Shown here: piece after piece, positions 51,262 through 61,799 of the stretch
How the letters are laid out: each line of letters opens with the position of its first letter
Numbering within the stretch: the stretch's first letter is position 1
NCBI RefSeq assembly: GCF_025643335.1
Contig: NZ_CP092489.1
Coordinates: forward strand, 1,166,501 to 1,230,500
Length of the DNA: 64,000 nucleotides
From: Endozoicomonas sp. Mp262
Lineage (GTDB): Bacteria > Pseudomonadota > Gammaproteobacteria > Pseudomonadales > Endozoicomonadaceae
Reading direction: 5' to 3'
Notes under the pieces: model-generated
The model's database searches: none
Told to the model about the DNA's origin: nothing
The model's input: the letters and a program-made list of their open reading frames with translations, nothing else
Translations under genes and position numbers: made by a program

Positions 51262-51318
51262 TGGATATTTAGTGTGTCCGGGTTGTGCTAGCCATACTAC
51301 AAAATAGTGGCCAGGCTA

Positions 51319-51598
51319 GGGGCTGTTGACGTTTGCTCGTGTGCTCAGCCAAAACCAGCGGTTTCGTGGCTAGACGCAGTAGCGCAGGAAGACTCACGTC
51401 TTTCAAGCTACTGCAACGACGGCACGGAATCGCTGGTTTTGGCCCTTCGGGTGGCTCGTAAAGCGGCTTTCCGACTGCGTTGGACTGGCTTGACGTAGAA
51501 TAACTATGCCTGCACCAGTCCGCCCGGTGTGCCCCATTGGGTATTGCGGAAAACCGCTTTACGAGCCACTGAGCTCACGATCAAACGTCAACAGCCCC
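51319..51598. repeat. 280-bp structured MITE-like element
   Basis: Perfect 17-bp inverted ends GGGGCTGTTGACGTTTG (51319-51335) and its complement (51582-51598), flanked by TA on both sides. The interior folds into two large hairpins. Hairpin A (51349-51442) is closed by CCAAAACCAGCG/CGCTGGTTTTGG, with inner stems GCAGTAGC/GCTACTGC and AAGAC/GTCTT. Hairpin B (51451-51569) has a 23-base outer stem with one mismatch and an inner GGACTGG/CCAGTCC. No transposase or long coding frame is present. A 50-bp relative with the same ends lies at 61674-61723. Confidence 0.85.
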
Positions 51599-51830
51599 TA
51601 GGAGCCTGTTCTCGGACAGTCTCCTATCTAAATGGTGGAAATCCTTCGCAGGAGGCGCCGGGAAAAATGACCCTGCGACTTACCGACGAAAATGAATTCA
51701 GTGAAATTGGTGGGGGATAATATGAAAAGTCGCCAGGAGTGTAAAACACTCCAGACCTTTATTTGGTAAATTATGGTCATTTTTATTGGAGCAAACCTGC
51801 TTCTGAAAAATAGTGAATAACCCATATTAA
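51599..51830. other. Residual spacer with a small hairpin
   Basis: No supported gene. A perfect hairpin GGAGTGT/ACACTCC (51736-51752, AAA loop) lies about 80 bases beyond the ancestral stop of the split exported-protein gene and could be its terminator on the minus strand. Confidence 0.45.
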
Positions 51831-60841: not shown

Positions 60842-61684
60842 ATGGCCGCTCCAGCAGACCGTTATGCGGTGATGGGTAACCCTGTTGCCCATAGTAAATC
60901 CCCCCGGATTCATGCCCTGTTCGCGGAAAACACACAACAGAAACTGCGTTATGATGCTATCGAGGTTGCCATTGGTTTATTTGAAGAGAGGGTTGCTGCT
61001 TTTTTTAACGATGGAAATCATGGCTTAAGTATTACTGTACCTTTTAAAGAGGCAGCCTGGTATTTGGCCGATAAAAAAACAGCGCGTGCAAAAACGGCAG
61101 GTGCCGTAAATACCCTTTGGCGGGATGAAAATAATTGCCTGAATGGGGATAATACGGATGGCATTGGATTGGTTAGAGATTTGACAGAGAACCATGACAT
61201 TCCTGTAAAAAATACCCGAATTCTTGTGTTAGGGGCTGGTGGTGCAGTTAGAGGTGTTTTGGCTCCACTGATAAATGAACAGCCAGCATTAATCACTGTG
61301 GCCAACAGAACGTTCAGTAAAGCAGAAGAGCTGGTAGAGATATTCAGTCAGGAAAAAAAATCTTCTAATCAGGTAAGGCTGAATGCCTGTAGTTTCGATA
61401 TGATTCAAGGGGATTTTGACCTTATTATTAATGGCACTGCTGCCAGTCTTCAGGGACAAACATTACCGGTTTCTCCCGATATCATTAATCCGGAAACCGT
61501 GTGTTATGACATGATGTATGGCTCTGGAGAGACAGTTTTTAATAAATGGGCCAGAGAGTCCGGGGCACTCAAATGTATTGATGGGCTGGGAATGCTTGTG
61601 GAGCAGGCGGCAGAACAGTTTTTTATTTGGCGTGGAGTCCGTCCAGAGACCGCTTCGGTATTGGCTGCTCTTAGGGGCTGCTGA
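60842..61684 (+). CDS. aroE: Shikimate dehydrogenase, C-terminus rewritten by a repeat
   Basis: A 280-residue NADPH-dependent enzyme of chorismate synthesis. It carries AVMGNPVAHSKSPRIHALF (substrate site), LSITVPFKEAAW (catalytic Lys), NGDNTDGIGLVRDL (Asp) and VLGAGGAVRGVL (NADP site). The ribosome site is GAGGTGAAAA before the ATG. The last three codons (R-G-C) and the TGA stop come from a 50-bp repeat inserted at 61674; without it the gene would read ...AALK and stop at TAA. Function should be unaffected because only the terminal residue changed. Confidence 0.97.
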   Translation: MAAPADRYAVMGNPVAHSKSPRIHALFAENTQQKLRYDAIEVAIGLFEERVAAFFNDGNHGLSITVPFKEAAWYLADKKTARAKTAGAVNTLWRDENNCLNGDNTDGIGLVRDLTENHDIPVKNTRILVLGAGGAVRGVLAPLINEQPALITVANRTFSKAEELVEIFSQEKKSSNQVRLNACSFDMIQGDFDLIINGTAASLQGQTLPVSPDIINPETVCYDMMYGSGETVFNKWARESGALKCIDGLGMLVEQAAEQFFIWRGVRPETASVLAALRGC

Positions 61685-61723
61685 CGTTTGATCGTGAGCA
61701 CAGGAGCAAACGTCAACAGCCCC
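61674..61723. repeat. 50-bp minimal MITE-like repeat forming the aroE stop and a hairpin
   Basis: Ends GGGGCTGCTGACGTTTG (61674-61690) and CAAACGTCAACAGCCCC (61707-61723) are inverted with one mismatch and are flanked by TA. The 16-base middle GATCGTGAGCACAGGAG-like segment matches the inner flank of the 280-bp element. As RNA it is a 17-bp hairpin beginning inside aroE, without a T-run after it. Confidence 0.88.
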
Positions 61724-61799
61724 TAAATAATATCCTCTTTGTGCAGTGATTGATTGATCTATACTTTCGACTTCTATAAATAATTAGAGAGTGCAGGGT

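Follow-up and report, generated by a model that had tools for sequence, protein, structure and literature searches.

The 3' end of aroE in the window (the whole 64,000-nucleotide stretch of the Endozoicomonas sp. Mp262 genome that was analyzed) coincides with a 50-bp repeat that has the dinucleotide TA on either side (Table 1). The sequence there reads ...GCTGCTCT-TA-(50 bp)-TA-AATAATATCC, and the repeat overlaps or contains the last three codons and the stop of the gene: in the Arg codon AGG (61673-61675), the A belongs to the left TA and both Gs belong to the repeat, while the Gly codon, the Cys codon, and the TGA stop (61682-61684) fall entirely within it, giving a protein that ends in ...AALRGC. 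A sequence-only reading of this DNA had pointed out the TA-flanked repeat and the AALRGC end followed by TGA, and had noted that excision of the 50 bp together with one TA leaves GCT GCT CTT AAA TAA; all of this is borne out by the sequence and the reading frame.

The repeat is an imperfect palindrome, with arms of 17 bp that differ by one mismatch and that, extended with the flanks, reach 26 nt at 88% complementarity. The RNA of positions 61660-61740 is predicted to fold at -36.5 kcal/mol, against a mean of -18.95 for shuffled sequences (z, -5.55; 0 of 200 shuffles as good), in agreement with the earlier proposal of a 17-bp hairpin across the aroE stop codon. The NCBIfam aroE models NF001310 and TIGR00507 matched up to residues 278 and 277, respectively, of 280, so the enzyme is not truncated; the repeat sits behind the conserved core. 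Downstream, bioY (PF02632; 61803-62384) lies between aroE and a gene for a YaeF/YiiX-type amidase (PF05708); in the downstream DNA of several relatives, inspected by eye, a similar gene appears to follow aroE directly, unlike in the window, where bioY intervenes.

Table 1. Features of the aroE locus and the long family member in the window
Feature	Coordinates	Strand	Basis or remark
aroE, shikimate dehydrogenase, 280 aa	60842..61684	+	ORF; Pfam Shikimate_dh_N, Shikimate_DH, SDH_C; NCBIfam NF001310, 375 bits
Left TA of target-site duplication	61672..61673	.	Sequence
50-bp MITE copy at aroE	61674..61723	.	2 substitutions vs short-class consensus (positions 8, 30)
Right TA of target-site duplication	61724..61725	.	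Sequence
Terminal inverted repeat, left arm, 17 bp	61674..61690	+	
Terminal inverted repeat, right arm, 17 bp, one mismatch vs left arm	61707..61723	-	
New aroE 3' coding end AGG GGC TGC TGA (Arg-Gly-Cys-stop)	61673..61684	+	Sequence and frame
280-bp long family member	51319..51598	.	Stem with two internal hairpins

The aroE end in relatives

The C-termini of AroE were read for 29 of the 36 family relatives and for 8 more distant ones. Arg occupies the position of the window's Arg in 28 of the 29 family proteins (Ser in the remaining one) and in all 8 of the more distant ones, and the 28 Arg-bearing family proteins run on for 2 to 10 further residues. Three relatives (L241, L063, and L065) have a natural Arg-Gly at that place, and an aroE ending in RGC without the repeat was seen in none of the 37 relatives read. 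The flanks of the repeat imply an ancestor with Lys followed by a stop, and an end in AALK, as the earlier reading had it, is the simplest interpretation of these flanks; on the other hand, no relative read shows Lys and then a stop. Either the element replaced a Lys by the Arg that is usual in the family, or the end had changed in some other way; the element happens to supply the usual residue of AroE at this position.

The comparison of aroE ends proposed in that reading was carried out and revealed no empty TA site, the relatives being too distant for one, with AroE protein identities of 58 to 59% to those from the same genus and 66% at best within the family. Empty sites, such as CTTAAATAA at aroE, were not found among the loci examined: a search with the joined flanks gave no match across the junction other than self matches, and the flanks of the aroE copy matched the aroE genes of relatives only to about the gene end. 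We accept the insertion at aroE and treat the exact earlier end of the gene as presumed.

From long MITEs to a 50-bp form

The genome (5.19 Mb in two contigs) contains the two arms at 50-bp spacing, with up to 3 mismatches, at 7 places, as opposed to none for a reversed control pattern. At the same threshold, none of the other 36 family genomes contains the arms at this spacing. The end pattern taken singly, with up to 2 mismatches, gave 80 forward and 83 reverse matches (reversed control, 0). The 280-bp copy of the window (51319-51598) with its flanks yielded at least 133 genome matches, many of which represent one arm lying on the other (40 of 121 first-look candidates were scored). At least 38 pairs of ends could be formed, and they fall into discrete sizes of 50 bp (7 copies), 154 bp (at least 1), 261 bp (at least 9), 279 to 281 bp (at least 15), 298 to 300 bp (at least 5), and 2,011 bp (at least 1); with ten forward ends left unpaired and unpaired reverse ends not counted, these counts are minima. 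Such discrete sizes fit the spread of a few master copies. TA is found on both sides of all 7 short copies, each at a different site, and among 30 long copies it is found on the left in 29 and on the right in 30 (YTA on the left in 29 and TAR on the right in 28).

These elements (50 bp and 261 to 300 bp, the latter in at least 30 copies) are short, have no transposase gene, end in inverted repeats with arms of 17 to 33 bp, and are dispersed in many copies with a target-site duplication, which are properties of miniature inverted-repeat transposable elements (MITEs). REP/RAYT elements make no target duplication and are linked to a Y1 transposase; the TA on both sides and the true inverted ends argue against such an identity here. 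The long member in the window has a strong predicted DNA fold (51315-51602; -104.1 kcal/mol; z, -14.8). No known RNA family was detected in the window at gathering thresholds, plasmid and phage sequences gave no matches to the long element, and one contig in IMG/VR carries a single exact end.

At L082:1569-1851, the end of a second family member stands back to back with a long copy, and the two have one TA in common. At L074:1334-1500, a 50-bp copy abuts a second inverted-repeat element of unlike sequence, and the 100 bases to the left of this copy recur at 99% in L052 and L013. The 154-bp form (L080:2989-3142) looks as if the long element's left half had been joined to the reverse complement of that half.

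The first 29 bp and the last 26 bp of the long consensus together make up exactly that of the short form, where the two segments have the 5-bp repeat GCTCA in common; in the long form, GCTCA is present at both places. The long form folds into a stem with two hairpins, and the deletion takes out both of them. Of the earlier suggestion that the family was moving, or was being deleted down to its ends, a dispersed, TA-flanked family and the reduction of a longer element to its ends are supported; an empty site was not found among the loci examined. Among the seven short copies, four have the same sequence. The aroE copy departs from the consensus in 2 of its 50 bases, so that it is probably not the youngest; one of its two changes turns TGT into TGC and keeps the Cys.

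Ends of this type (one free base, at most 1 mismatch) occur in 23 of the 36 family genomes, in some as a single match, and the reversed control was found once each in two genomes. At least 8 short forms of 52 to 73 bp were seen in 7 relative genomes, and there was also one of 121 bp; these lengths include the flanking dinucleotides, and the stretches were picked among the matches listed and do not amount to a census. Two of them (L206 and L208) measure 50 bp without the flanking dinucleotides and have other inner sequences. Three of the 8 forms read have TA at both ends, and the other five have CA at one end. Judged by eye, the junctions differ from one relative to another, L210 and L211 apart, and short forms have therefore probably arisen more than once in the family. 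By comparison, the single layout found in the present genome suggests one origin followed by spread. In G035, which belongs to another genus, a diverged family member of about 232 bp (L241) starts 6 bp after the aroE stop; this gene end was apparently hit there independently.

We consider it likely that the 50-bp repeat is an internal-deletion derivative of a MITE with IS5-type ends, which spread as a short form and landed in the end of aroE. A long copy of 261 to 300 bp would have lost everything between the two GCTCA repeats at the base of its internal hairpins, a deletion that can be traced in the sequence itself and that may have come about by slippage or by annealing across the hairpin base. 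The resulting 50-bp form would then have been copied or moved into YTAR TA sites by an IS5-type transposase acting in trans, as judged from the fact that seven copies, all of the same size and flanked by TA, are dispersed in the genome. One of these would have landed in the last codons of aroE, where the presumed old end was replaced by the Arg-Gly-Cys-stop seen today, and the insertion would persist because it lies behind the conserved core.

The TA flanks and the one common junction could also be explained by separate deletions at a single hotspot. A long copy of 261 to 300 bp would then have sat at the aroE end and lost its middle in place, as would the other six, each time between the same GCTCA repeats, with the same effect on aroE because the ends are the same. 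We regard this as unlikely, although a 5-bp direct repeat borders the deletion where strong hairpins have their base, a likely hotspot, and short forms probably arose more than once in relatives: the seven copies in this genome share one size and layout, whereas the short forms of relatives vary by eye in size and junction (L210 and L211 apart), and only one intermediate, of 154 bp, was seen among at least 38 pairs. Returning to an origin by deletion followed by spread, we would go further only tentatively, with somewhat less than even confidence, and propose that the bare 50-bp pair of ends is itself the unit that spreads, forming recurrently from longer IS5-lineage MITEs in the family and amplified in one species. 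Stop codons in its ends, in two frames on one arm and in three on the other, would make it a safe cap for host genes.

Probable transposase parentage

In the relative G016, an 845-bp element with these ends (L205/L251; 0 and 1 mismatch of 18) holds a 169-aa ORF for an IS5-family transposase, which scored 63.9 bits against PF13340 (cut-off, 34.3) and 141 bits against NF033580 (transpos_IS5_3; cut-off, 110), covering positions 4 to 149 of 258 in the latter model. Relatives of this ORF were matched in 15 of 37 genomes. Among 30 such transposase loci, 7 (L251, L266, L252, L267, L260, L261, and L272) have an end match with no more than 3 of 18 mismatches, as against an average of 0.025 and a maximum of 1 for shuffled loci. 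These seven come from G016, G022, G008, G006, and G028, L251 being the same element as the 845-bp one of G016; L252 and L267 each have 5 mismatches at one of their ends. At 4 to 5 mismatches, many matches are due to chance (19 of 30 loci at up to 5 mismatches; shuffles, 5.0). The remaining 23 of the 30 loci have no end match at up to 3 mismatches, which limits these ends to a part of the transposase group. Since the terminal repeats of the element are shared with an IS5-family transposase gene and like ends bound such genes in relatives, the family is most likely IS5-derived.

In the genome of Mp262 itself, the parent was sought with four models. PF13358 gave 62 matches and PF01609 gave 150 scored matches; there were none to PF13340 or to the protein of L205, and all 12 matches to NF033580 were below its cut-off (best, 44.6 of 110 bits) and fall on an IS that has different ends. 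The ends of most groups of IS copies in the genome were read and none matched, the IS630A group giving no clean ends. When 66 transposase loci of this genome were scanned with the first 15 bases of the element, no end pair was revealed; in each of the 12 loci of the 297-aa type (L135 to L146), one lone match with 3 mismatches lies inside the IS, and L144 has a second one outside. The 2,011-bp pair (L081:1046-3056) was rejected as a parent: here a different IS, on whose 480-aa ORF a PF01609 match falls, has split a long MITE. We take this IS to be IS1380-like. As no transposase of the G016 lineage was found in the genome with these models, a claim of present activity is weakened, though one of descent is not, and the MITEs here may be stranded or may be moved by something not recognized.

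Gene ends closed by the element

The 37 copies examined (7 short and 30 long) close 11 gene ends, as counted for ORFs of at least 90 aa. This count omits a twelfth listed end, the right flank of L036, where a 117-aa frame continues for 180 nt across the element. In six of the 11, the stop is a TAG to which the TA and the element's first G contribute; three have RGC-TGA (aroE, a major-facilitator transporter, and an aldose epimerase), and two have GAVDV-TGA (a nudix diphosphatase and a FecCD-type permease). In the 10 closed proteins other than AroE, the match extends almost to the end of the profile; about 40 to 50 residues past that point are left uncovered in L044 and L056, and the 446-aa ORF of L037 is without the start of the profile.

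Five of the 37 copies, affecting six genes, sit exactly in a stop codon. The family could conceivably be adapted to land there, as YTAR includes TAA and TAG, the ends remake TAG, and the gene keeps its end. The count of stop-codon insertions and the 11 closed ends are in its favor, and with ORFs called crudely the excess has a P of 0.004 against all YTAR sites of the window; against YTAR sites outside gene bodies, however, it is weak, P being 0.25 for the window (21 of 230 sites) or 0.013 when 36 further loci from this genome serve as background (27 of 706), and it can be explained by selection against damaging insertions, that is, by tolerance. Stop-codon targeting beyond tolerance at gene ends is not clearly supported, and we consider such an adaptation very improbable.

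A role for the hairpin in closing the aroE transcript also has little to recommend it. It might have been kept as a terminator, as a stabilizer of the mRNA, or as an uncoupler from bioY downstream, and the strong stem over the stop codon and the diverged long member that follows aroE in G035 would agree with that. Yet an intrinsic terminator is a G+C hairpin followed by a T-tract, and the stem at aroE is followed by TAAATAATATCC, which has no T-tract; nor does a terminator scan list anything there. The two substitutions weaken the stem of the aroE copy to -34.6 kcal/mol, compared with -42.6 and -42.1 kcal/mol for two consensus copies (two diverged copies, among the 5 of 7 that were folded, are weaker still), and among the 29 family aroE ends there is one (L241) with a family member no more than 500 bp from the stop; at L238, a single match with 4 mismatches lies 282 bp away. 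A retained function is thus improbable, and the hairpin is most likely a by-product rather than a working terminator.

Bacterial MITEs that overlap gene 3' ends are already known. In Coxiella burnetii, QMITE1 and QMITE2 overlap the 3' ends of functional genes by 1 to 50 bp, and a QMITE in enhC of the Dugway strain supplies 33 C-terminal residues (PMC5896051). Like the aroE element, these are MITEs of an intracellular gammaproteobacterium that lie at gene 3' ends and form a stable stem, but their sequences are different, and a class of 50-bp bare ends is not seen in the passages considered here (PMC5896051). The palindromic elements of Rickettsia are small mobile sequences that alter the coding part of metabolic genes; those of about 150 bp fuse in frame into proteins, whereas the aroE element stops translation within a few codons (PMC10969869). 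In "Candidatus Endonucleobacter," insertion sequences are given as 10 to 11% of the genome (PMC11521996).

The IS5 family (NF033580 and PF13340) has similar terminal repeats in relatives and TA at the insertion site, as does the present element, but carries a transposase, whereas the element has no gene and its own genome gave no matching transposase with the models used. No description of this family was found in the literature searched on MITEs and inverted repeats in Endozoicomonas or Endozoicomonadaceae; what is new here is the family and the example. Within one genome, the forms grade from a long structured MITE down to bare ends, and the element illustrates how bare ends rewrite the last codons of working genes, the principle itself being known. 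For annotators of genomes from this bacterial family, it provides a rule that could reveal similar cases: ends in YTAR, with genes closed by TAG, RGC-stop, or GAVDV-stop.
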